A stretch of 38,713 nucleotides of DNA, taken from the IMG/VR virus record IMGVR_UViG_3300045242_000049, positions 1 through 38,713 of that record. One strand, given 5' to 3'. The stretch comes from a virus. Below the pieces are notes generated by a model, which was not told where the DNA came from, did no database searches, and was given only the letters and a program-made list of their open reading frames with translations. A program made the translations under genes and the position numbers. This document shows, one piece after another, positions 2,679 to 36,197 of the stretch (positions within the stretch are counted from its first letter, which is position 1; every line of letters starts with the position of its first letter).

Positions 2679-3977
2679 ATGAGCAAGAAACTCCGCGAGC
2701 TGAACGCTCGCAAGGCGCAGCACGTCACGTCGATGCGCGCGATCGCCGACAAGGCTTTTGCCGACGGCAACCGCGATCTGACGCCGGACGAGGAAGAGGC
2801 ATTCAACACCGAGAAGAAGGGCCTGGATGCCACCGTCGCCGCGATCGCGCGTGAGGAAACGCTGATCGAGGCCGAACGTAACATCGGCGCCACCCGCGTC
2901 GAGGACGTGCGCGCATCGGGCGGCGAGGACACCCTGATGCAGGATCCCAAGCGCGGCTTCAAGTCGCTTGGCGAGTTCGCGCAGGCTGTGCGGGTGTCGA
3001 AGGTCGGCGGCGCGATGGACGGTCGTCTGGCCGCTGCTGCTCCGTCATCGTTCGCCAACGAAGCCGACGGCGCCGATGGTGGCTTCGCCATTCCGCCGGC
3101 ATTCTCGACCGACATCTGGAACATGTCGCTCGCCGAAGGCTCGCTGATCCCGATGACCGACAACACCGAGGTCACCGGCAACTCGATGGCGTTCCCGAAG
3201 GACGAGACCACGCCGTGGGGCGGCACCGGCATCCAGGTGGCATGGCAGGCGGAAGGCACCGCGGCAACGCCGACCAAGCCGGTCCTGGGCCTGGACACGC
3301 TGCGCCTGCACAAGATGATCGCGCTGGTTCCGATCACCGACGAGCTGATGGCCGATGCGCCGGCGCTCTCCGGCTATCTGAGCAACAACGTCCCGCCGAA
3401 GATCATGTACAAGGCGAACGAGGCGATTTTGTTCGGCACTGGCGTTGGCCAGCCGGCTGGCTGTCTCAACGCGGCCTCGCTGGTCGTGGTGGCCAAGGAA
3501 ACCGGCCAGGCGAATGCGACGATCGTGCAGCCGAACATCTCCAAGATGCGCAGCCGCTTGCTGGTCGGCAATCTCAAGAACGCGGTCTGGGTGGGCAATC
3601 CCGACATCCTGCCGGCGCTCGAGAGTCTGGTCGTCGGTCAGATCCCGATCTTCCTGCCGCCTGGTACGGGCATCCGCGAGGCGTACAACGATGGCACGTT
3701 GAACGGGCGTCCGCTGATCTTGTCCGAGCACGCCAACGCGCTCGGCACGCAGTCGGATCTCTCGTTGATCGCTCTGAACGGCTACCGCACGATCACGAAG
3801 GCTGGCGGCATCGAGACGGCGACGTCGATGCACCTGTACTTCGATGCAGCCGTGACGGCGTTCCGCTTCATCTTCCGGATGGATGGCCAGCCGATCATGA
3901 AGGCTGCCGTGACGCCACCGGCCGGCAAGAGCACCAACTCGCGCTCGTACTTCGTCTCGCTCGGCGGCCGTCCGTAA
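2679..3977 (+). CDS. Major capsid protein, HK97 fold
   Basis: 432 residues from the ATG at 2679, which has a GGAG Shine-Dalgarno 8-11 nt upstream; longer in-frame starts have none. Residues 1-70 are charged and helical and resemble the HK97 delta (scaffold) domain. Residues from about 115 onward show the HK97-fold family pattern: the DGGFAIPPAFSTDIW start of the mature protein, an E-loop-like stretch with W and T residues, and the C-terminal GYRTITKAGG and RFIFRMDGQP strands. The delta domain is presumably removed by the upstream protease during maturation. No doubt about family; the exact cleavage point is not determined. Confidence 0.95.
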   Translation: MSKKLRELNARKAQHVTSMRAIADKAFADGNRDLTPDEEEAFNTEKKGLDATVAAIAREETLIEAERNIGATRVEDVRASGGEDTLMQDPKRGFKSLGEFAQAVRVSKVGGAMDGRLAAAAPSSFANEADGADGGFAIPPAFSTDIWNMSLAEGSLIPMTDNTEVTGNSMAFPKDETTPWGGTGIQVAWQAEGTAATPTKPVLGLDTLRLHKMIALVPITDELMADAPALSGYLSNNVPPKIMYKANEAILFGTGVGQPAGCLNAASLVVVAKETGQANATIVQPNISKMRSRLLVGNLKNAVWVGNPDILPALESLVVGQIPIFLPPGTGIREAYNDGTLNGRPLILSEHANALGTQSDLSLIALNGYRTITKAGGIETATSMHLYFDAAVTAFRFIFRMDGQPIMKAAVTPPAGKSTNSRSYFVSLGGRP

Positions 3978-4008
3978 TCGGGCGTAAGCTGATCACCCTG
4001 CTATACGT

Positions 4009-4026
4009 CGGCCGCTTCGGCGGCCG
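4009..4026 (+). other. UUCG-capped hairpin after the capsid gene
   Basis: CGGCCGC at 4009-4015 and GCGGCCG at 4020-4026 form a perfect 7-bp stem around the stable tetraloop TTCG. It begins 32 nt after the capsid stop. No T-run follows, so it is more likely a 3' mRNA-stabilising or partial attenuation structure than an intrinsic terminator. Confidence 0.6.
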
Positions 4027-4068
4027 GCGCCACCGCATCACCGCATTCCATTCAGAAGGAAAACGATC

Positions 4069-4518
4069 ATGAACCCGAACACGAAAGGCTCGGAGCAGGC
4101 GGCACTGCTCGGCGTCATCGCACCGTCCAGCCAGGGCGCTGGCGCGCTGTCGACCGCATGGGTCGCCGCAAAGAACTTCCACCGCTTCCTAGCGATCATC
4201 CAGTCCGGCGTGCTCGGCGCGTCGGCTACGCTGGATGCGAAGCTGCAGCAGGCGACGGACGGCACTGGTACCGGCGTGAAGGACGTGACCGGCAAGTCGA
4301 TCACGCAGTTCGTCAAGGCCAGCAACGACGGCAACCAGGCGCTGATCGACTGCTCTGCCGATGATCTGGACGTGGCGAACAGCTTCAACTTCCTGCGCTT
4401 GACCGTCACGGTCGGCACGGCGGCCAGTTTGTCGTCTGCAGTGCTGCTGGGCATGAGCCCGCGGTTTGCGCCGGCGTCGGACTTCAACCCGGTGACCGTC
4501 GTCCAGGTCGCTGGCTGA
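4069..4518 (+). CDS. Putative head decoration protein
   Basis: 149 residues with an AAGGAA Shine-Dalgarno about 10 nt upstream. The sequence is largely beta-rich: DAKLQQATDGTGTGVKDVTG in the middle and a strand-rich LRLTVTVGTAASLSSAVLLG segment near the end. I recall similar proteins directly after the capsid gene in other HK97-type phages, usually unnamed. Position and predicted beta sandwich fit a decoration or capsid-stabilising protein, but that role is inferred. It is isolated from its neighbours by a hairpin on each side, which would allow independent control of its level. Confidence 0.6.
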   Translation: MNPNTKGSEQAALLGVIAPSSQGAGALSTAWVAAKNFHRFLAIIQSGVLGASATLDAKLQQATDGTGTGVKDVTGKSITQFVKASNDGNQALIDCSADDLDVANSFNFLRLTVTVGTAASLSSAVLLGMSPRFAPASDFNPVTVVQVAG

Positions 4519-12370: not shown

Positions 12371-12828
12371 CCAGGCTCATCCACCCGCTGACCGCTGCCG
12401 AGCGCGTGACCGTCGTGGCGGCTGCCAGGGCGCACCTGCACCCACCAGCCATCTTCCGGCACCGTGGGCGCTCCCGTACGCGCCTGGACTGCCTAGGGCT
12501 CGTTATACGCTCGCTGGCTGCCGTTGGCGCCGTGGTGCAGGACCGGGAGGCCTACGGCCGGGACCCGGTCAATGACGGGCTTCGTGCGGCCGTTGTGGAG
12601 CATCTGGGGGATCCATTCGCCACTAGCCCGGTTCAGCTCGCACAACTGGCGCCTGGGGACCTGGTGCTCATGAAATGGCACACCGAGCCCAACCACATCG
12701 CGGTCGTGACCGACTACGTCCTGGGCGGCCTGGCGATCATCCATGCCTATGCCCAAGTCGGCTGCGTGGTGGAGCATGCACTGGCTGATCCCTGGCCACG
12801 GCGTATCACTGAGGCCTTCAGGCCATGA
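12367..12828 (+). CDS. NlpC/P60-type tail tip peptidase
   Basis: 153 residues from ATG 12367, overlapping the preceding stop. The catalytic Cys lies in LDCLGL (C42), the His in NHIAVV (H110), and a third polar residue in IHAYAQ (H126), which matches the NlpC/P60 arrangement. GDLVLMKW is the usual strand before the His. Such tail proteins cut peptidoglycan cross-links or stem peptides during DNA entry, or process the tail tip. Next-door tail tip and hub genes support this. Confidence 0.88.
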   Translation: MTRLIHPLTAAERVTVVAAARAHLHPPAIFRHRGRSRTRLDCLGLVIRSLAAVGAVVQDREAYGRDPVNDGLRAAVVEHLGDPFATSPVQLAQLAPGDLVLMKWHTEPNHIAVVTDYVLGGLAIIHAYAQVGCVVEHALADPWPRRITEAFRP

Positions 12829-15791
12829 GTGGCTCATTCCTCGGTGGTGTGATCGGTGCAACCATCGGTTTCGCCATCGGCGGCCCTGGAGGTGCACAGG
12901 AAGGCTGGCTGATCGGTGCGACTGCGGGCGGCATCCTTGATCCGCCGGTGATCAAGGGCCAGCGCCTGACGGATGCCCAGGGCCAAACCGCGACCGATGG
13001 TGTCTTTCGTCCGATCGTCTATGGCATCGCGGCATGCGCTGGCAACGTCATCCAGATCGGTCCGCTGGTCGAGCACAAACACAAGCAAAGCTCGGGGAAG
13101 GGCGGTCCGGTCCAGATTACCTATACCTACACGCGCACCTACGCGATCCGCATCTGCGAAGGGCCGATCAGCGCGATCCTACGGGTCTGGCGCAACGACA
13201 AGCTGATCTACGATGCGACCGCTTCGGGTGTGGTGATCGCCGCGGATTCGGCGACGACCGCGAGCAAAATGACGTTCTACCTGGGCGATGAAACCCAGAT
13301 GCCGAGCTCGATCCTCGAGGCGCTACCTAGCGCCAATGGTGGCGGCGCCGGCAATGTCTGCGCGCACCGCGGCACCGCCTATGCTGTGATCGCGAACGAT
13401 GATCTGACCGACATGCAGGGCGCCATTCCGCAGTACAAATGGGAGGTGCGTACCTGCATCGCTTCGGACGCAGCAGGCGTGACCTGGATCGACGGCAACA
13501 CCGGGACGACGCAATCGGTCGAATGCCTCAATGGTGGCGCCGGCGCATGGATGATCGGCGGTGATAACGGCACGCTCGCACGCTCAGATGACTACGGTCA
13601 GACCTGGTCGCTGATCCCGTTCACCGCGCAGCTCGGAATCTCAAGCACGTCGCCCTGCCAGAACCTCTGGTTCGACGTGCTCTGGTACATGACCAATAGC
13701 GTCAACCTGGCATCGAGTCTCGATGGAGGGGAAACCTGGCAGTTCGTCTCGACCCCGGTGCACACGGCGCAGCCCAACTCGATCAGTGAGGTCGACGGAG
13801 CGTTCTGGGCTGGATATGGCACTGGCGGCAACACAGCCATCTTCCAGCCGATCGACGGCACCACGATCACCCTGGGATCCAATTTCGGGATCATGAACAC
13901 GGCCGCGAAGCTCAGCGGCTCGTATTTCATGGGGACCGACAACGGCTACATCCTGAAGGGCGCATCGCTCGGCGCGTGCGCCTCAGTGGCGCATTACGGT
14001 GGTGCCAGCATCCGGCAATTCGCAGAGGGCAACGGCATCATCCTGGCGGTCGGCGATGGACTGAGCTCGCAGTATGCGTATTCGAGCGACGGTGGTTCGA
14101 CTTGGTCGCTGAAGGCTGGCGTATTCGAGGGTGTCGCCTTTTTCGACGGCCTGTTCTATGCCTGCACTGCGAATGGCATTTTCTTCAGCAGCGACGGCCT
14201 CGCCTGGACGCAGGACGACAGTTCGTTCTTCTTCAATGCGCTCGGCAGCTTCATGCGGCCGACAATCTCTGGCATGGTAGCCTGCACGAGCGCGGGCAAG
14301 ACGGCAGCGGCCGGCTTCCCCGGCTTCTCCGGCTCGCTCTTTCAGATGCCGGACTCGCCAGGCTTCGGTGTCGGCGTCCAGGGCGATGTCGTTGGACCAC
14401 CGACGACGAATCTTGGCTTGTGTTCGAGCGAGCTGTCCGGGATCGTTGCCGATCTGTGCGCGCGCTGCGGAGTGGACAGCACCCAGATCGACGTGAGCGC
14501 CCTCACGGACGATGTCCGCGGCTTCCTGGTCGGCGCCCAGATCGCCGGCAAGGATGCGATCAAGACGCTGCAGCAGGGCTATTTCTTTGACTTCCCGCAA
14601 TGGGACAAGAAGCTGCGCGGCGTGAAACGCGGTGGTGCACCGAGCTTCGTCGTCAACGATTCGGATCTGCTGATCGAGGACGACAACGACACCACGACCA
14701 GGGCGCAGGCGATCGAGTTCCCGCGCAAACTCAACCTGATCTACGCCGACCCGACCAAGAATTACGCAGCGACGACACAAACGGCCGAGCGTCGCACCGA
14801 GGACGTGCGCGCGATCGGCGAGCTCACGGTGCAGCTGCCACTCTCGCTGATCAGCACGGAAGCCGCGCAAATCGCCGCGATCCTGCTACAGATTGCCTGG
14901 ACCGAGGCAGAGGGCAAATGGAAGCGTCATTTGCCGGAGGAATTCTCCCAGATGACGCCGAGCGACATCTTCACGACGTCGGACGGGCGCCGCTATCGCG
15001 CGCTGACGGCCACGCTGGAGAATGACGAGACGCTGTTCGAGGCGGTGCGTGATCGCGTGAGTTCGTACAGCTCGAGCGCGGCTGGATCCACGAGCGTGGT
15101 TCCGATCGATCCCGTCTCGAGCATGAAGGGACCGACGATCTTCGCAGCGATGAATCTGCCTAGGCTAAACACCCAGGACAACTCGCCTGGCATGTACATC
15201 GCCGTCATGGGCCTGCTCGCTGGCTGGATCGGCTGCGACCTGCAGCTTTCGACCGATGCCGGGGTCAGCTTCCATTCCGTGGCCCAGCTCATGACGGCCT
15301 CGACGATGGGTAGGCTCACAGGTGCCATCGGCCCGAGCACCACGCCAATTCCGGTGGAAATGTACGACGACGGACAGCTCGATTCTGTGACCGATGCACA
15401 GCTTGCTGCACGCGCGAACGGATTCGCGATTGTGGCGAGCGATCTGTCCGAGGTGGGCCAGTTCAAGACGGCCACATCGACCGGTGTTGGCTTGTATGAT
15501 CTGACCACGATCACTCGCGGCGCGCTCGGCAGCACGGCGGCATCGCATGCGAAGGGCGATCAGTTCGTCATGCTCGACAACGTTTTTTTTCTGCAGCTGG
15601 ATGCGAGCCTTGCTGGACAAACACTCATCTTCAGGCCAGTGTCGATCGGCACACCGGCTGCAACCAACGCAACCTATTCGGTGCTATTCGATCCGCAGTT
15701 CACTGGACCTGCGGTGATTGATTTTTATGAAGACGAGACCGGCGCGAAATACGCCGACGAGACAGGCGCTTACTACCAGGTGACGGAATAA
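12825..15791 (+). CDS. Tail tip / host-specificity protein with Asp-box insert
   Basis: 988 residues, coupled to the peptidase gene by an ATGA overlap. The N-terminus (Gly-rich, GQRLTDAQGQTATDGVFRP) and the later segment ELSGIVADLCARCGVDSTQ with QQGYFFDFPQWDKKLRGVKR belong to the GTA-like tail tip family that replaces lambda gpJ. Between them residues about 218-510 carry at least four Asp-box repeats: SDDYGQTW (254), SLDGGETW (298), SSDGGSTW (420) and SSDGLAWT (455), which implies a BNR-type beta-propeller insert. Family members lack this block as far as I know. The C-terminal 200 residues contain a Gly/Ala-rich fibronectin-like end. Likely receptor-contact protein. Confidence 0.85.
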   Translation: MSGSFLGGVIGATIGFAIGGPGGAQEGWLIGATAGGILDPPVIKGQRLTDAQGQTATDGVFRPIVYGIAACAGNVIQIGPLVEHKHKQSSGKGGPVQITYTYTRTYAIRICEGPISAILRVWRNDKLIYDATASGVVIAADSATTASKMTFYLGDETQMPSSILEALPSANGGGAGNVCAHRGTAYAVIANDDLTDMQGAIPQYKWEVRTCIASDAAGVTWIDGNTGTTQSVECLNGGAGAWMIGGDNGTLARSDDYGQTWSLIPFTAQLGISSTSPCQNLWFDVLWYMTNSVNLASSLDGGETWQFVSTPVHTAQPNSISEVDGAFWAGYGTGGNTAIFQPIDGTTITLGSNFGIMNTAAKLSGSYFMGTDNGYILKGASLGACASVAHYGGASIRQFAEGNGIILAVGDGLSSQYAYSSDGGSTWSLKAGVFEGVAFFDGLFYACTANGIFFSSDGLAWTQDDSSFFFNALGSFMRPTISGMVACTSAGKTAAAGFPGFSGSLFQMPDSPGFGVGVQGDVVGPPTTNLGLCSSELSGIVADLCARCGVDSTQIDVSALTDDVRGFLVGAQIAGKDAIKTLQQGYFFDFPQWDKKLRGVKRGGAPSFVVNDSDLLIEDDNDTTTRAQAIEFPRKLNLIYADPTKNYAATTQTAERRTEDVRAIGELTVQLPLSLISTEAAQIAAILLQIAWTEAEGKWKRHLPEEFSQMTPSDIFTTSDGRRYRALTATLENDETLFEAVRDRVSSYSSSAAGSTSVVPIDPVSSMKGPTIFAAMNLPRLNTQDNSPGMYIAVMGLLAGWIGCDLQLSTDAGVSFHSVAQLMTASTMGRLTGAIGPSTTPIPVEMYDDGQLDSVTDAQLAARANGFAIVASDLSEVGQFKTATSTGVGLYDLTTITRGALGSTAASHAKGDQFVMLDNVFFLQLDASLAGQTLIFRPVSIGTPAATNATYSVLFDPQFTGPAVIDFYEDETGAKYADETGAYYQVTE

Positions 15792-16801
15792 TGGCCCGAT
15801 TCGGAGACAAACCGGCAGCCGCTGCGCTGACCGGTACAGAAATCATGCCGATGACGCAGTCGGGCAGTGATGTCCATTCCAATCCTGCAGACGTCGCGAG
15901 CTTCGCGAACAACAACTCAGCGCATACAGGCACACCAACGGCGCCGACTGCATCGCCTGGCACGAACACCACGCAGCTGGCCACAACGGCATTCGTGAAG
16001 GCCGCTGTCGACCTGGCCGTCCAAGGATTGACCCAAAAGCCCACCGCGCGCGCTGCGACCACTGGGGCGCTTCCTGCGAACACTTACGCGAACGGCAGCA
16101 GCGGCGTCGGAGCCACGCTGACCGGCAACAGCAACGGAGCGCTGGCAGCGCAGGACGGCGTGACCCTGGGTGCCAACGATATCCTGCTCGTACTCAACGA
16201 GGCCGCAGCTGCGCACAACGGCCTGTATACGCTCACCCAGGTCGGCGATGGGTCGCATCCGTACATCCTGACCCGCCACGTCGACATGGATCAGAGTGCG
16301 GAGTTCACTGGCGCCTTCGTTCCGGTCGACAACGAAGGCACGACGAACAAGAACACGATCTGGCTGAACAACTTTACCAGCGGCCTGGTCGTTGGCACCA
16401 CGGCGGTCACCTTCACCGCGCTCACATCGGCTGGCTATACCGCCGGCCAAGGCATCTCGATCGCCGGCAGCGTGATCAGTGTGTCTCCACCAAATGTCCA
16501 GGCCGTGGCATCGGCCTCAACGGTTACCCCAACTTTCAGCAACGATCTGGTCGAGATCACCGCGCAAGCTGCGGCGCTGACGCTGGCCAACCCGACTGGA
16601 ACAGCTGCAGATGGATGGGGGATAGCGATTCGCATCAAGGACAACGGCACCGCGCGCGGGATCACCTACGGTTCGCAATATAGGGCGCTTGGCGTGACAT
16701 TGCCGTCGACGACCGTCATCAGCAAGACGCTTTACCTAGGCATGATTTTCAACAACACCGACACGAAATGGGACGTTGTCTCTGTGGCGCAGGAAGCCTG
16801 A
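15791..16801 (+). CDS. Tail fibre-like protein
   Basis: 336 residues, starting at the ATG that shares bases with the preceding TAA. The N-terminal 70 residues contain the repeat region TPTAPTASPGTNTTQLATTAFV that often begins phage fibre or appendage proteins, and the middle has a beta-rich module with GVTLGANDILLVLNEAAAAHNGLYT and a YILTRHVDMDQSAEF strand pattern. Composition is rich in Thr, Ala, Asn and Gly. It is probably attached to the tail tip and contributes to host binding. No enzymatic motif is visible. Confidence 0.7.
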   Translation: MARFGDKPAAAALTGTEIMPMTQSGSDVHSNPADVASFANNNSAHTGTPTAPTASPGTNTTQLATTAFVKAAVDLAVQGLTQKPTARAATTGALPANTYANGSSGVGATLTGNSNGALAAQDGVTLGANDILLVLNEAAAAHNGLYTLTQVGDGSHPYILTRHVDMDQSAEFTGAFVPVDNEGTTNKNTIWLNNFTSGLVVGTTAVTFTALTSAGYTAGQGISIAGSVISVSPPNVQAVASASTVTPTFSNDLVEITAQAAALTLANPTGTAADGWGIAIRIKDNGTARGITYGSQYRALGVTLPSTTVISKTLYLGMIFNNTDTKWDVVSVAQEA

Positions 16802-16802
16802 T

Positions 16803-17639
16803 ATGCGCCCCATCAAAATGATGACTGGTGGGCATTCTGGCGGTGGCGGCTACAACGCCGAGACTGTCGCCTGGTACACCGCCATCGCTGGGCTCGGCGC
16901 TTCGGTCACGACCACGGAGAAGAACTGGGCTGATGCATTGATCGTCGCCTGGCGCGCGCAGACGTTCGACAGCAAGACCGTTTCGATCTATCCATTCCTC
17001 GGCGCCTACATCAATGCGGCGCGCGTGCCGTTGCGGGATGCGCTCTCAGCTGGTCCCGCAGCAAATACTGGATTCGTGGATGGCGATGTTGGCAATGCAG
17101 TCGGCATCGCGAATTCGTCAGGCGCGAACAAATATTTGAACACCGGGATCACGCCGAGCCAGCTCGGTTCGTCTGGGAATGGTGGCCTGGGCTGGTACGA
17201 GCGCAACTTCCTCGGTAACGGTACAACGACCGAGATCATGGGAATGGACGAGTCCACGATCACCGCCGATGGACGTTTTGTTCTGGATATTCGTTCAAGC
17301 GGAAATCGCTTTTTCTCATTCGGAGAGGTTGGGACACGATCTGGCGATACCGTTGCAGGCGCGAACGGCTTCTATTACGGCCAGCGCAACGGAGCAACGA
17401 GCAGGGCGCTTTATAAGGACAGCACGCAGCTGGGCAGCACGAATACATCAAGCGATCCTGCATCCGGTGCGAATCAGTATTCGATCCTGCTGATGGGCTG
17501 CAACGTGCACGGCACACCGACCCAGGCGAATGGTCGCGGTGGCATCGCTGTGCTCACGGATGGCACGTTCACGACCACCGAGATTGGGGACATGAAAACC
17601 CTGATCGACATTTACCTAATCACCGCGACTGGTCGCTAA
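16803..17639 (+). CDS. Tail appendage protein with lectin-like C-terminal half
   Basis: 278 residues from ATG 16803, 1 nt after the preceding stop; AGGAAG lies about 7 nt upstream. An in-frame TTG at 16776 is possible but lies inside the fibre gene. Residues 100-278 follow the pattern of concanavalin/LamG-like jelly rolls in phage structural proteins: GFYYGQRNGATSRALYKDST, a QYSILLMGCNVHG strand, and a final LTDGTFTTTEIGDM helix start. The N-terminal half holds GGHSGGGGY. Likely carbohydrate-contact protein. Its last 24 nt overlap, tail to tail, with the acyltransferase gene on the other strand. Confidence 0.65.
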   Translation: MRPIKMMTGGHSGGGGYNAETVAWYTAIAGLGASVTTTEKNWADALIVAWRAQTFDSKTVSIYPFLGAYINAARVPLRDALSAGPAANTGFVDGDVGNAVGIANSSGANKYLNTGITPSQLGSSGNGGLGWYERNFLGNGTTTEIMGMDESTITADGRFVLDIRSSGNRFFSFGEVGTRSGDTVAGANGFYYGQRNGATSRALYKDSTQLGSTNTSSDPASGANQYSILLMGCNVHGTPTQANGRGGIAVLTDGTFTTTEIGDMKTLIDIYLITATGR

Positions 17640-18668
17640 ACCCCGACTTGCCGTAGCGCACTTTCCCGTGCCCGCGCAAGTACGGATCTTGATTCCATGT
17701 GGCTTGTGCGCGAGCAATTCTTCGAAGATGCGCTGATATGGCCTTAACTCGACGACTGCTGCGCGCTGCTTCCTGAAGCAGGCCTCGATTGTATGGAAGG
17801 ACAACGCAGCCAGCGCGGTCGATGTTGCCATGGTCAGCAAAAGAGCCGGGGCGCCAACCAGATGCGCGTCATGGGACACGAACCAGATAATCGGCCAATG
17901 GTAGAGATAGATGCCGTAGGAAACCCGGCCGATGTAGACGAACGGCTGGCGCGCTAGGAAAGGAATGCTGGTCTGGTACGAGAGCAGAATCAGCGCACCG
18001 GTCGCGCCCTCGGCGAACATGCGATCAGCTGGAAATCCAAGAGCGACAAGCAGCATCCCCACGCCAACCACGGCGATGGGAAGCATTGATCGGATCGGCA
18101 GGAATGCCAGCAAGGATCCGAAGACAAGGCCGGACATCCGTGTGTCGAACCGGAATGGCGCGCGCCAATCGAATAACCCCCACCAGCACCAGGCTGTCGC
18201 GACAACGTAAACAGCCAGCAGCAAGGCGGTTGCATTGCGTCGCTTCATGCGCGCCACGAGCGGCAGCAGCAGCGGCCAGAGCAGATAGTAATGTTCCTCG
18301 ACCGCTAGGCTCCAGGTATGCACAAGGATGCCTGCTGGGCCGATGTAGTCGTCGAGGTAGAGCAACGCGTTCGCCGCGCTGCGCCAGGTCACCCACCCAA
18401 GCGCCAGCATGGTGGCCACCAGCGTGATCAGCGCTGGGAACAGGCGCCGGGCCCGGCGCATGTAGAAGGCGCCAAGCTTGATCCCGCCAGCGCTTGTCTC
18501 GCGCAGTAGGATGGACGTGATCAGGAAGCCGGACAGCACGAAGAACACGTCGACGCCGAGATAGCCTCGCAGGCTGAGCACATGCCAGCTCGCGTGGTAT
18601 TCGATCACGGCCAGTACCGCGATCGCGCGCAGGCCGTCGAGCGCTGGATTGTAGCGAAGCGTGCTCAC
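17616..18668 (-). CDS. Membrane acyltransferase 3 (OafA-type), likely O-antigen modification
   Basis: 350 residues from a GTG that overlaps the J-domain stop (GTGA). Acyltransferase_3 (PF01757) features are clear: YNPALDGLRAIAVLAVIEYH at the start with the conserved His, GYLGVDVFFVLSGFLIT, the RRARRLFPAL loop, and HTWSLAVEEHYYLLWPLLL. Hydropathy suggests about ten membrane helices to residue 310; the final 35 residues are polar and low-similarity. Enzymes of this type transfer acetyl groups to surface polysaccharide in the inner membrane, and phage versions change O-antigen and block reinfection. Substrate is inferred. It is the last gene of the minus operon, converging on the tail genes. Confidence 0.9.
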   Translation of the reverse strand: MSTLRYNPALDGLRAIAVLAVIEYHASWHVLSLRGYLGVDVFFVLSGFLITSILLRETSAGGIKLGAFYMRRARRLFPALITLVATMLALGWVTWRSAANALLYLDDYIGPAGILVHTWSLAVEEHYYLLWPLLLPLVARMKRRNATALLLAVYVVATAWCWWGLFDWRAPFRFDTRMSGLVFGSLLAFLPIRSMLPIAVVGVGMLLVALGFPADRMFAEGATGALILLSYQTSIPFLARQPFVYIGRVSYGIYLYHWPIIWFVSHDAHLVGAPALLLTMATSTALAALSFHTIEACFRKQRAAVVELRPYQRIFEELLAHKPHGIKIRTCAGTGKCATASRGLATSRGD

Positions 18669-19315
18669 GCTGTTGCCTGCTCGTATGCCTGCATTATTTC
18701 CTGGAACCGTGCCGTGTCGCCACCGTTATCTGGGTGGTGCTTTGATCGCAGCCGCATGTATGCAGCATGGACTTCGGTCCCGTGAGCCTCGGGGCTGATA
18801 CCGAGCACATCCCACCAATGCCGGCTTGGTTGGTGCTCGATCGCCGTGAAGCCGGTGAAGGCGCGCTCGAGGATCTGGGCGCCACCATGGCGCTCTATCG
18901 CGCGCATGGCATCCAGGGTGGCCGCTACGGCGGCCAGATTGTCGGCGATGCGAACGTATCGATCGATCGCCATGCAGCGCGCTGGGCCTGTTCCCTGCCA
19001 ATATACGGCCACGCCTGGGTCGTCTGGCTCACGCTGGGTCGACTTGGGCCATCCGTCCATCCGCAGCTGCAGGTCCGTGCTGATGACCAAGTCGTCGTCC
19101 TGGATGCCCATGCGAGCAAGTTCGGCGCGCACGCGCTCGACCCCTTGGGCGATCGTGATCTCGCCGTTCACCATCCGTCGGGAGAAGGAACCGTCTGCAT
19201 TCTTGAAAAGGCTGACGTGCTCGCGCTTTTTTGCGAAGCGCGCGCGGGTGCGTTCACCAGGGAAGGTGCGCTTCCAACCGGCAGGCCATTGCAGCGGATA
19301 GGCGGGAACGCTCAT
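18665..19315 (-). CDS. J-domain protein with phage-type N-terminal domain
   Basis: 216 residues from ATG 19315. A TTG 6 nt upstream is in frame but less likely. The last 50 residues are a J-domain: HWWDVLGISPEAHGTEVHAA, then the HPD triad at 194-196 and NGGDTARFQEIMQAYEQA. The N-terminal region (AYPLQWPAGWKRT, then VERVRAELARMG) is found in similarly built phage and plasmid proteins. A C-terminal J-domain would recruit host DnaK, perhaps for replisome remodelling as lambda P needs DnaJ and DnaK. The role is inferred. The gene is coupled to the acyltransferase downstream. Confidence 0.85.
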   Translation of the reverse strand: MSVPAYPLQWPAGWKRTFPGERTRARFAKKREHVSLFKNADGSFSRRMVNGEITIAQGVERVRAELARMGIQDDDLVISTDLQLRMDGWPKSTQREPDDPGVAVYWQGTGPARCMAIDRYVRIADNLAAVAATLDAMRAIERHGGAQILERAFTGFTAIEHQPSRHWWDVLGISPEAHGTEVHAAYMRLRSKHHPDNGGDTARFQEIMQAYEQATA

Positions 19316-19317
19316 TC

Positions 19318-19569
19318 TCAAATCTCCAGGTGTTGGAGGTCGATCTCATCGACCTTGTCGCGCAGCTGGCGCTTGGCGATGCGCAGGGCTTGCGCAACTA
19401 TGCGCGGAGGCTGACTGGCATGCACATTCAGCGCCGAAATATGCAAGGCATTATGGCAATCACGCCGGAACAACCGGTATTGGATCTGGCCAGACTCGCC
19501 GACAGGTGTCCTGAACCAGCTGAAGCCGTTCCGCTTGCTTGGCTGGCGCATGGTCTGATGCTTCGTCAT
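19318..19569 (-). CDS. Small basic protein, unknown
   Basis: 83 residues starting at the ATG that overlaps the stop of the preceding gene (ATGA). The sequence begins MTKHQTMRQPSKRNGFSWFR and is basic, with RLFRRDCHNALHISALNVHA and a Lys/Arg/Gln-rich C-terminal helix. The stop is followed 2 nt later by the J-domain start. I do not recognise a family. Its tight coupling to neighbours is the main evidence that it is real; small DNA-binding function is only a guess. Confidence 0.55.
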   Translation of the reverse strand: MTKHQTMRQPSKRNGFSWFRTPVGESGQIQYRLFRRDCHNALHISALNVHASQPPRIVAQALRIAKRQLRDKVDEIDLQHLEI

Positions 19570-28670: not shown

Positions 28671-29180
28671 ATGCCACTCGCACTAAAAATCCTGATCTTC
28701 CTGAACGTCGTCGGCCTTGTGACGATCGTGCTCATCGCGCTGGCACTGCGCAACGTCCTGATCGACGTTTACCTTGAACGCTTCAATTATCGCTTCACGC
28801 ACCGCTGGAGTCGCAACGGCAAGGATGCCGCAACCATCCGTCTGGTCCTGGATCCTGACGGCATTTCAATCGAAGGAGGATGCATCATGAGCAACAAGCA
28901 CATCGGCGACACCAAGAAGTTTCATATCGACGGCACCAACGCCGGCGCCGCGCTCGATCTGACCAACGTGAAGGTCAGCACCAGCGATGCCACGGTGGCA
29001 ACCGTTTCCGGTAGCCTCAACGCGGACAACACCGTCTATTCCGGCGAGTACACCTGCGTCGGCATCGGCACCTGCTCGCTCGATGCCGAGGATCTGACCG
29101 CAGACGGTCAGGACGTGAAGGCCTCGCTCGGCATCAATGTGGTCGCACCGGCAACGCTGGAAATCGTCGAGGACGCATAG
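28671..29180 (+). CDS. Membrane-anchored Ig-like protein (long form)
   Basis: 169 residues from ATG 28671 (GAGG upstream). Residues 5-27 form one membrane helix (ILIFLNVVGLVTIVLIALAL). Residues 73-169 are a beta-rich region with VSTSDATVATVSGSLNADNT and EYTCVGIGTCSLDAEDLT, which resembles bacterial Ig-like (Big_2) domains. Between them is a basic linker (FNYRFTHRWSRNGKDAA). A second, much stronger start at 28887 lies in the same frame, so a short soluble form is expected; this long reading may be two adjacent genes joined without a stop. Confidence 0.5.
   Translation: MPLALKILIFLNVVGLVTIVLIALALRNVLIDVYLERFNYRFTHRWSRNGKDAATIRLVLDPDGISIEGGCIMSNKHIGDTKKFHIDGTNAGAALDLTNVKVSTSDATVATVSGSLNADNTVYSGEYTCVGIGTCSLDAEDLTADGQDVKASLGINVVAPATLEIVEDA
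28887..29180 (+). CDS. Soluble Ig-like protein (short form, internal start)
   Basis: AAGGAGGA at 28873-28880 is 6 nt from ATG 28887, much stronger than the site before 28671. The product has 97 residues: MSNKHIGDTKKFHIDGTNA, then LTNVKVSTSDATVATVSG and an ending LGINVVAPATLEIVEDA. The pattern of Thr/Val/Asp alternation fits one Ig-like domain, typical of phage structural or surface-binding proteins. Position in the early operon is unusual for a structural part. The short form is the better-supported one. Confidence 0.65.
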   Translation: MSNKHIGDTKKFHIDGTNAGAALDLTNVKVSTSDATVATVSGSLNADNTVYSGEYTCVGIGTCSLDAEDLTADGQDVKASLGINVVAPATLEIVEDA

Positions 29181-32635: not shown

Positions 32636-33037
32636 ATGCCGTTTACGCTCGGTCCCAAATCGCTCAGTCGCCTGGTCGGCGTGCATCCTGACTTGGTCCG
32701 GATGGTGCAGCTCGCCATCACGCTCAGCGCGGTCGACTTTGCCGTGTTGCCGAGCGTGCGCACCCAGGCTCAGGAAGCCGAAGAGGTGAAGGAGCACAAG
32801 AGCACCACGATGCACAGTCGGCACCTGCCCAACCTGCAGGGCTACAGCTGCGCGGTGGATCTGGGCGCATGGGTGGGTGGCAAGCTCACCTGGGAACCGG
32901 TCACGATCTACGCCAGCATCTGGCAGGCCATGCAATCGGCTGCTGACCAGTTGCAGCTACCGATCGAATGGGGGGGCGCTTGGGTGACCTTCAAGGATTA
33001 CGATCACTTCCAGCTGCCATGGTCGAGTTATCCATGA
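32636..33037 (+). CDS. Endolysin, M15 L-alanyl-D-glutamate peptidase type
   Basis: 133 residues. The VanY/T5-type pattern is clear: GVHPDLVRMVQLAITLSAVD at residues 15-34, then TTMHSRHLPNLQGYSCAVDL with expected zinc ligands H63 and D75, and FKDYDHFQL with H124 as third ligand and D121 as likely catalytic acid. It cuts peptide side chains of peptidoglycan. It has no signal peptide, so it needs a holin for export. Length matches the T5 Lys group. Confidence 0.9.
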   Translation: MPFTLGPKSLSRLVGVHPDLVRMVQLAITLSAVDFAVLPSVRTQAQEAEEVKEHKSTTMHSRHLPNLQGYSCAVDLGAWVGGKLTWEPVTIYASIWQAMQSAADQLQLPIEWGGAWVTFKDYDHFQLPWSSYP

Positions 33038-33857: not shown

Positions 33858-34241
33858 ATGATTCGTAAATCGTTTTCTTTACTTGTAATAGCCCTCACCT
33901 GCACTCTCATGCTGATGGTCGCCGTGCCAGGCTGCAAGCAGCTGGTCGGCGCAGGCATTGTCACCAAGGTTAATGCCAATGTCGGAACCGAACAGATCGT
34001 TCAAGCCTGCGCCACGATCAAGGCCGGCGAAGATGCGGTGCTGATCCTGGCCGCGAACCATCAGCTTTCGAACGCATGGCTGGCCCAGATCAAGATCGTC
34101 ATCCCGCTAACACAGCCGACGTGCAATGCGCTTGTCATGCCGACGTCGATTCCCGCTGCGCAATATACCGCGCTTCTTAACTACGGATTGACCTTCACCA
34201 ACGCGCAGGCAAATCCGAAAGGTTCGCCACCGCCGCAGTGA
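33858..34241 (+). CDS. Lipoprotein (candidate o-spanin or exported protein)
   Basis: 127 residues. The N-terminus MIRKSFSLLVIALTCTLMLM is a typical signal, and AVPGCK provides a lipobox with Cys at residue 26. The mature part is mostly uncharged with CATIKAGEDAVLILAANH and ends Pro-rich (KGSPPPQ). A lipoprotein beside lysis genes suggests the outer-membrane spanin, but the length and low proline content are atypical for Rz1. No separate inner-membrane spanin is clear. Confidence 0.6.
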   Translation: MIRKSFSLLVIALTCTLMLMVAVPGCKQLVGAGIVTKVNANVGTEQIVQACATIKAGEDAVLILAANHQLSNAWLAQIKIVIPLTQPTCNALVMPTSIPAAQYTALLNYGLTFTNAQANPKGSPPPQ

Positions 34242-34276: not shown

Positions 34277-34552
34277 ATGAACCTCAATTTCACAAGTGTT
34301 TTCGCCGGCATCAAGGCGTTGCTGCCAGTTGCATCGCAAGTCCTCACGCTGCTCAATCCGGCAGCCGGTGCGGCAGCTGGTGTTGTGTCGAAAATCGTCA
34401 ACGAAGTCGACGTAGCGCTCCCGCTCGCCAAGCAGTATGTCGCCGATCTCGAGGCCGCAAAGGCAGGCTATACGCAGGAGCAATGGGACATCCTGAAGAA
34501 CGCCAAGCAGTCCGACGACGACGCGATCCTGGCGCTGCAGCCCACCACTTGA
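34277..34552 (+). CDS. Small helical unknown protein
   Basis: 91 residues from ATG 34277; a GTG at 34238 overlapping the previous stop is an alternative giving 13 more residues. It contains SVFAGIKALLPVASQVLTLL (moderately hydrophobic), AAGVVSKIVNEVDVALPLAK, and an acidic end DDDAILALQPTT. It has weak start signals. It may associate with membranes. No family recognised. Confidence 0.45.
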   Translation: MNLNFTSVFAGIKALLPVASQVLTLLNPAAGAAAGVVSKIVNEVDVALPLAKQYVADLEAAKAGYTQEQWDILKNAKQSDDDAILALQPTT

Positions 34553-34561
34553 GTCATCGCT

Positions 34562-34654
34562 GTGCGACGCAGCTTGCTGCCCGTCATCATCGTGATGGCG
34601 ATTTGCCTGCTGCTGTCGGCGTTCCTGCTGTATTCCGCAAACCTTCCCGAATGA
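34562..34654 (+). CDS. Very short membrane peptide
   Basis: A GTG-started ORF of 30 residues with one hydrophobic helix (LPVIIVMAICLLLSAFLLYS) between a basic start MRRS and an acidic end. There is no good Shine-Dalgarno. Its stop overlaps an alternative start of the next gene. It may be a short holin-like or spanin-like peptide, or not translated. Confidence 0.35.
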   Translation: MRRSLLPVIIVMAICLLLSAFLLYSANLPE

Positions 34655-34662
34655 GGTTTCCG

Positions 34663-35832
34663 ATGAAAGGCAAATCCCGTCAAATCGCTATGCTGAGCGC
34701 AGCCATCTTCATGGCATGCGCGCCGGCATTCGGCGATATCATCGACAGCAAGACAGCGCAGAGCAACGCGGCGAAGCTTGCCAACTTCAACTACAAGGGC
34801 GGATGGAATGCATCGCTTGGCACAGCGCCGAGCAATTCGCCAGCCGCGCTCGATTACTACATCGTGACGACTGCTGGAACCACGTCGTTAGGCGGGAACG
34901 CACAATGGAATGCTGGCGATTGGATCATCTATCTGGGCGGTGCCTGGCAGCGGCTTGATGCCAAGGATCCACAGTCGATGCTCAACCAGCTGGTCGGATC
35001 GCAGAACCTGACGACTTTCACCGCGAACATGGGCACCCAGGTTGGCGGCATTGCGAAGTCGTCATCTTTTGCAAACATCGGCACCGGCAACACAACGAGC
35101 GGCACGCCATCGTATGCATTCGGCGCGCACAACACCTCGAGCGGCAATTACGGATTCACTGCAGGAACCTACAATACAGCGAGCGGCAATTACTCGGATG
35201 CGATTGGCAGTCGCAACTACGGCACAGGGACTGGCGCGAGCGCGATCGGCAACGGCAACCACGCTGATGGCACCTATTCATCGGCATTCGGTAATGCCTC
35301 GAGCGCGACAGGGACAGGGTCTAGCGCATTTGGCTACGGAGCCAAGGCTCTCGCCAACCATGCCACAGCAATCGGGGATACCGTATTCGCCAACAATCTC
35401 GACAGCAGTTCTTTTGGATTCCATGCGAGCGCAAGCGCTGATGGCGCCACGGCTCTTGGATTCAACGCGGTTGGCGATGTAGTGAATGCCGTCTCAGTCG
35501 GCGCGACAGGCACCGAACGGAAGATCGTGCATCTTGCCGCTGGGTCTGCAGCGACGGATGCAGTCAATCTTTCGCAGGTAGTGCCGACGTCTAGCACGAC
35601 TTTGCCGAGTGGCATCACCGTTACCGCATCGCCGTTCGTGTATCACAACGTGGCCGCGTTCGATGCTGACGTGATCGTGAGTGGTGGCACCGTGACGGAG
35701 ATAGCCTTCAGCAGGAACGGCTCGACCTATTACGTCTCAGGATTGCTCGCTGGTGTTATCCAGCTCTCGCCTGGTGACTATGTGAAGGTCACATATAGCG
35801 TGGCGCCAACGGAGACCCTGGTCCCGCGCTGA
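34663..35832 (+). CDS. Exported YadA-like / tail-fibre hybrid protein
   Basis: 389 residues from ATG 34663 (GAGG upstream; ATG 34651 is in frame). Residues 1-24 look like a signal peptide: MKGKSRQ, hydrophobic IAMLSAAIFMACA, then PAFG before D25. Residues 45-100 (GGWNAS, DYYIVTTAGTTSLGG, WNAGDWIIYLGGAWQ) resemble a phage fibre module. Residues 135-275 are YadA-type head repeats (SSAFGYGAKALANHATAIGD), followed by a neck-like VSVGATGTERKIVHLAAG. The last 80 residues match the SPFVYHNVAAFDADVIVSGG tip module of phage proteins. No YadA membrane anchor is present. Probably trimeric; location unknown. Confidence 0.75.
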   Translation: MKGKSRQIAMLSAAIFMACAPAFGDIIDSKTAQSNAAKLANFNYKGGWNASLGTAPSNSPAALDYYIVTTAGTTSLGGNAQWNAGDWIIYLGGAWQRLDAKDPQSMLNQLVGSQNLTTFTANMGTQVGGIAKSSSFANIGTGNTTSGTPSYAFGAHNTSSGNYGFTAGTYNTASGNYSDAIGSRNYGTGTGASAIGNGNHADGTYSSAFGNASSATGTGSSAFGYGAKALANHATAIGDTVFANNLDSSSFGFHASASADGATALGFNAVGDVVNAVSVGATGTERKIVHLAAGSAATDAVNLSQVVPTSSTTLPSGITVTASPFVYHNVAAFDADVIVSGGTVTEIAFSRNGSTYYVSGLLAGVIQLSPGDYVKVTYSVAPTETLVPR

Positions 35833-36197
35833 TGCCACACCGACCACCGCTGCACCAGCCACCAGCGCCGCATAGCAAGCAACACCGGCCACAGGTAACC
35901 AGCCGACGAGCTCGGCGTGCGCTGGCGACGAACAGCGCAGCATGGCGAGCCATCCGCAGCGCACAGCTCGCGCGCGAGCCGCTATGCCGCTGCTGCAAGC
36001 ACCACGGCTGCCCGCGGTGTGCGCGCAGCGGTCTGCGAGCCGCGAACCAGGTCGACCACATCGACGGGGACGCCACCCACGACGAGCAGGCGAACTGGCA
36101 ATCGCTCTGTGCCCCGTGCCATAGTTACAAGACAGCGACTGAGCAGGGTGGCTTCGGGAACCCGAAGGGTGCCAAGGATGCCGACCCGACCCGGTAG
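35832..36197 (+). CDS. HNH endonuclease
   Basis: 121 residues, starting at the ATG sharing a base with the previous stop. The motif CRCCKHHGCPRCAR, then NQVDHIDGDATHDEQANWQS and LCAPCHSYKTATEQGGFG are the HNH core with zinc-binding Cys pairs. HNH proteins beside terminase genes are known to support DNA packaging in HK97-type phages. The N-terminal 40 residues are basic and His-rich. Confidence 0.9.
   Translation: MPHRPPLHQPPAPHSKQHRPQVTSRRARRALATNSAAWRAIRSAQLAREPLCRCCKHHGCPRCARSGLRAANQVDHIDGDATHDEQANWQSLCAPCHSYKTATEQGGFGNPKGAKDADPTR

Follow-up and report, generated by a model that had tools for sequence, protein, structure and literature searches.

Does a tailed phage export one of its own fibres? 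The question is raised by a gene at 34663–35832 (plus strand) of a virus record of 38,713 bases, the whole of which is referred to here as the window. Its 389-residue product appears to be a fibre/adhesin chimera bearing a signal peptide. Tailed phages assemble in the cytoplasm, and a fibre with an export signal therefore breaks the usual rule.

The gene order of the record is lambda-like. Genes for portal, protease, major head protein, connector, tape measure, tail tip (12825–15791) and tail fibre (15791–16801) are followed by an acyltransferase gene, replication genes (O-like initiator and DnaB-like helicase), a Q-like antiterminator and the lysis cassette, and then by the gene at 34663–35832, an HNH endonuclease, a ParB/DNA methyltransferase and the small and large terminase subunits (TerS/TerL). 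The two ends of the record (positions 1 and 38713) are joined in contig L007, which is 99.9% identical to both and supplies ∼1.1 kb between them, presumably the missing remainder of the large terminase gene; the record thus represents a nearly whole, circularly permuted genome. Neither an integrase (PF00589) nor an HTH_3 repressor was found in this incomplete record, which leaves a temperate lifestyle and a role in lysogenic conversion without support. Likewise, transcription of the gene as a moron from its own promoter was not supported by a scan for promoters of the sigma-70-like type, which returned none.

As originally predicted, the gene lies between the lysis cassette and the HNH/ParB-methyltransferase/TerS/TerL genes. 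The cassette is marked by an endolysin of the M15 peptidase family (32636–33037, plus strand; Pfam and PHROGs) and includes a lipoprotein gene with the lipobox AVPGC (33858–34241, plus strand), while the packaging-side genes begin directly downstream with the HNH endonuclease (35832–36197, plus strand). This location had been regarded as odd, a view that we could not uphold: phages often have fibre genes next to or inside their lysis cassettes, and the position is thus no evidence for an unusual role. For example, the viral contig L105 encodes a holin, a membrane protein, a 1044-residue fibre and an M15 endolysin in that order, and it is in this fibre that the C-terminal domain discussed below has its nearest relative (62% identity). 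Similar fibre/lysis neighbourhoods occur in Janthinobacterium phage Donnerlittchen, Acinetobacter phage P711 and Xanthomonas phage SB4.

The lipoprotein gene and its small partner (34277–34552) had no match in Pfam, PHROGs or annotated phages. A viral contig of 64 kb that otherwise differs (L014; 5980–6330 and 6342–6617) keeps the same pair next to a lysozyme-like gene, with a lipoprotein that is 73% identical, and to judge from these sequences the pair is possibly an undescribed lysis-cassette module.

The reading of the N-terminus depends on where translation starts. Of the in-frame starts around the 5′ end, ATG 34663 alone has a matching Shine-Dalgarno sequence (GAGGT, 34653–34657, plus strand, spacing 5); the alternatives ATG 34651, M10 and M17 have none. 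A 30-codon GTG reading frame with a single hydrophobic segment (MRRSLLPVIIVMAICLLLSAFLLYSANLPE; 34562–34654, plus strand), read from the sequence, ends with its stop 8 nt upstream of ATG 34663; translational coupling is possible, and the frame may specify a tiny membrane protein.

From this start, residues 1–24 (MKGKSRQIAMLSAAIFMACAPAFG; 34663–34734, plus strand) show the layout MKGKSRQ / IAMLSAAIFMAC / APAFG|D. Residues 1–7 carry a net charge of +3, the 12-residue core (8–19) is uncharged and hydrophobic with a mean Kyte-Doolittle value of 2.36, and signal peptidase cut sites fit at AFG|D, the site proposed earlier, or at APA|F. By a crude home-made three-part rule, which is no trained predictor and makes the signal peptide a reading of the sequence, the N-terminus passed with a score of 11.1, and the same rule gave 10.4–12.5 for six signal peptides taken from complete phage-borne trimeric autotransporters. 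Just 4 of the 254 mechanical ORFs of the window passed. Two of the four are on the plus strand, namely the lipoprotein at 33858 and an ORF of hydrophobic character at 28671; those on the minus strand scored 9.1 and 8.7. Charge, core, cut sites and score together bear out the claim of a signal-peptide-like N-terminus, probably of the Sec type. Export is its most natural reading, because the hydrophobic core is short and is followed by a proper cut site; ∼12 residues are few for a stable transmembrane anchor.

The remainder of the protein is built from parts already known singly. Residues 39–117 (34777–35013, plus strand) form a phage tail-fibre module (YKGxWNAS ... GDWIIY ... W) recognized by tblastn, by alignment and as PHROG 31460 tail protein. 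The module is present in most of the 48 matching annotated phage records, where its label is often tail fibre or minor tail protein. Hundreds of viral contigs also contain it, and 80 viral loci from these were examined. Nine 14-residue YadA-head repeats follow in register (residues 150–275; 35110–35487, plus strand). They match Pfam PF05658 with E = 1.2e-9, exceeding the curated cut-off, and their best match among solved structures is 3s6l (E = 5.8e-18). Identity at period 14 is 0.328, compared with 0.111 ± 0.026 in shuffled sequences (maximum 0.209, n = 2000), and glycine stands in register in nine of nine repeats. A YadA-type neck (residues 276–308, SVGATGTERKIVHLAAGSAATDAVNLSQV; 35488–35586, plus strand) is indicated by 3s6l and by the Pfam YadA_stalk/neck model, the latter match lying below the model's own cut-off. 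The original assignment of fibre and YadA-head parts is therefore well founded in PF05658, 3s6l, the 14-residue register and the phage relatives.

The C-terminal domain (residues 315–389; 35605–35829, plus strand) was delineated by sequence relatives, a structural model and BFVD matches. AlphaFold applied to that part alone predicts a jelly-roll with pLDDT above 95; the whole protein, modelled from its single sequence, reached a pLDDT of 35, and the structure used here is that of the C-terminal part only. The domain is common to the C-termini of phage tail spikes and fibres, its relatives match PHROG tail spike 11182, and it also occurs in small podovirus proteins encoded beside the packaged-DNA stabilization (gp10-like) gene. 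Foldseek found no PDB match to the model with E under 0.001, and VIA-align Z values of 6–7 were scattered over jelly-rolls; given such weak fold matches, no function was read from this domain. Sequence searches gave no credible homology of either the fibre module or the C-terminal domain to solved structures.

The same jelly-roll ends a family of small proteins that start with PPRVPxxDxRTGLISREWYRFFxNLF (contigs L108, L109 and L113, and L015 at 3875–4195). In L015, Rhodoferax phage P26218, the gene for this protein comes after the gp10-like gene, in the position of P22's tail needle. These small proteins might be short needle- or tip-like proteins.

A trimeric autotransporter would also be expected to carry a membrane anchor, which the original prediction had reported as missing. 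This was confirmed: YadA_anchor (PF03895) had no match at E ≤ 1 in any of the six frames of the whole record, which also rules out a complete autotransporter whose anchor was lost or lies out of frame downstream. With respect to type Vc secretion, the protein has the head repeats and the neck, but no anchor, and its C-terminus is a phage jelly-roll. With respect to virion tail fibres, it has the shared fibre modules (39–117 and 315–389), and no known virion-attachment domain ahead of the fibre module was found in Pfam or PHROGs. Nor is it a SAR endolysin or spanin by these searches, as its Pfam matches are to YadA head and stalk only and PHROGs returned no lysis family.

Comparison with known systems places the protein between two groups. 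Marine phages are known to carry a T7-type tail fibre with a YadA C-terminus (PMC3909814). Such YadA-headed fibres, of which contig L195 provides another example, share with the present protein the head repeats, the neck and the absence of a YadA anchor, but they begin with a virion-attachment domain (Phage_T7_tail, PF03906, in L195) and have no signal peptide. Conversely, complete phage-borne trimeric autotransporters, such as the prophage-encoded Eib proteins, e.g. EibD (PMC8065619), share the YadA neck (in some also the head) and their encoding by a phage, and resemble it in their signal-like N-terminus, but they end in a YadA anchor where the protein studied here ends in a phage jelly-roll; it also has the fibre module. 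Proteins like trimeric autotransporters with signal-like N-termini were likewise encoded by eight viral contigs of 170–315 kb (L187–L191, L193, L194 and L199). In the three tested for the PF03895 anchor, E values were 2.6e-15 (L187) and 5e-16 (L189), and the match in L199 was just under the cut-off. Some of these large-contig proteins contain collagen-like stretches. A YadA-head protein is also encoded amid the transfer genes of an E. coli IncX1 conjugative plasmid (L200, 2399–3496), adjoining an IS1 element.

Phages are also known to export surface proteins of other kinds, e.g. Bor and Lom of lambda (PMC7067206, PMC8065619) and superinfection-exclusion lipoproteins such as Ltp (PMC3952083). 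The likeness is that a phage gene product is exported and acts at the host envelope, as we propose here. Bor, Lom and Ltp are unrelated in sequence to our protein, which is a fibre and shows no outer-membrane barrel and no clear lipobox.

To place the N-terminus, we considered the relatives of the single modules. No full-length relative was found in viral contigs, genome contigs or plasmids; no annotated phage record covers 80% of the query, and 399 genomes of one bacterial order yielded two module-only matches. Homologues with the same N-terminus, for which the original prediction had proposed a search, were absent from all of these collections. Neither the 80 nearest relatives of the fibre module nor the 80 nearest of the C-terminal domain include a protein with a signal-like N-terminus; all 160 are signal-free proteins of the virion type. 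Homologues devoid of the first 24 residues had been named as evidence against a signal peptide. Loosely, all 160 are of this kind, but they are relatives of single modules and none is full length, so that they do not decide the matter.

A set of signal-less short fibres (MLKTVSS...NYKGTWNAS; contigs L026, L036, L040 and L059) starts ∼16 residues before the YKG motif; in L036 the N-terminus, MLKTVSSITNAIGALNYKGTWNAS, runs straight into the fibre module. Counted from D25, our protein starts 19 residues ahead of YKG. The distance between the (mature) N-terminus and the YKGxWNAS module is thus almost equal in both, although the short fibres have no signal peptide and different C-terminal parts. 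On this comparison the signal looks as if it had been added cleanly to a complete short fibre, rather than arising as a random extension. Each module being known already, the N-terminus stands out as the unusual feature, seemingly the front of an exported adhesin joined to the body of a virion fibre.

On balance, we consider it probable that the product is a trimeric fibre without an anchor, exported by Sec, made together with the lysis proteins and released at lysis, and that it perhaps shields receptors. This reading draws on the good signal at the only supported start, the short hydrophobic core, the intact modules and repeats, and other genes of the tail region that are candidates for the virion fibres (15791–16801, matching tail-fibre PHROGs, and 12825–15791, a tail protein). 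The lipoprotein and the small membrane ORFs just upstream are export or membrane proteins, too. According to this model, the protein would be produced late in infection alongside the lysis proteins, and residues 1–24 would direct it to the periplasm and then be removed. The remainder, starting where the signal-less short fibres start, would fold into fibre module, YadA-type head, neck and jelly-roll tip, and trimerization is suggested by analogy with the solved head and neck structures of the YadA family. Lacking the YadA anchor, it should have no type Vc route across the outer membrane; together with the position beside the lysis genes, this suggests that it would stay periplasmic until lysis and then be freed. 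The fibre-type modules could then occupy the surface receptor that the phage itself uses, on debris as well as on cells nearby, so that fewer progeny are lost to dead cells, or competition is reduced. We speculate, while thinking it rather unlikely in this full form, that a tailed phage has turned a short fibre into a soluble, secreted trimeric receptor-blocker by means of a cleavable signal, masking debris and neighbours against its own or competing virions.

The strongest alternative, which we hold to be possible though doubtful, is an ordinary short tail fibre of the virion whose hydrophobic N-terminus stays uncleaved as a docking or membrane-interacting segment, or is bypassed by a signal-free start at M17 (MACAPAFGDIIDSK...). 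Against export also counts that no orthologue with the same N-terminus was found. That every module relative is virion-type counts for the short fibre and against export, and so does the setting, as a fibre gene adjoining lysis genes is normal for virion fibres: signal-less short fibres with the N-terminal module occur in tail regions just ahead of lysis genes, and the L105 fibre sits inside a lysis cassette. Short fibres devoid of a recognizable attachment domain exist as well. Against it stand the GAGGT ahead of M1, which M10 and M17 lack, the three-part signal layout, found in ∼1–2% of mechanical ORFs, and the absence of a known virion-attachment domain ahead of the module.

A lipid-anchored outer-membrane fibre, cleaved before C19 (FMA|C) with the lipid standing in for the missing YadA anchor, seems improbable. 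Residues 15–19 (IFMAC) fit, by eye, only the permissive PROSITE lipobox pattern PS00013, but the residues at −3 (F) and −2 (M) are unfavourable in a lipobox, the good signal peptidase I site AFG|D comes after C19, and no relative has a conserved cysteine at this position. In its favour are the clear lipoprotein gene slightly upstream (33858) and the precedent of phage lipoproteins of the lambda Bor type (PMC7067206). Least of all do we expect a decaying or mis-assembled remnant, i.e. a trimeric autotransporter recombined with fibre pieces and now functionless: its mosaic build and the failure to find orthologues would suit this, but the fibre module has kept its conserved W, G and Y residues and the repeats their register, the frame is open over all 389 codons, and GC3 is near that of the neighbours, so that the gene is not visibly decaying.

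If the fibre is exported as we favour, this phage would have split host-binding machinery from the virion and would supply it in free form. Receptor masking or superinfection control would then have a new route, and stable trimeric binders that can be secreted a natural source. Should export not occur, the case would show that a signal-like N-terminus by itself can mislead the annotation of phage fibres.

Elsewhere in the genome, the 287-residue protein encoded directly after the tail fibre (16776–17639) had no match in PHROGs or annotated phages and is a candidate receptor-binding protein. Just past the tail genes and on the opposite strand, a gene for an O-antigen acetylase-like acyltransferase (17616–18668, minus strand) overlaps one for a DnaJ-domain protein (18665–19321, minus strand), placing a surface-modifying gene in a genome in which no integrase was found.
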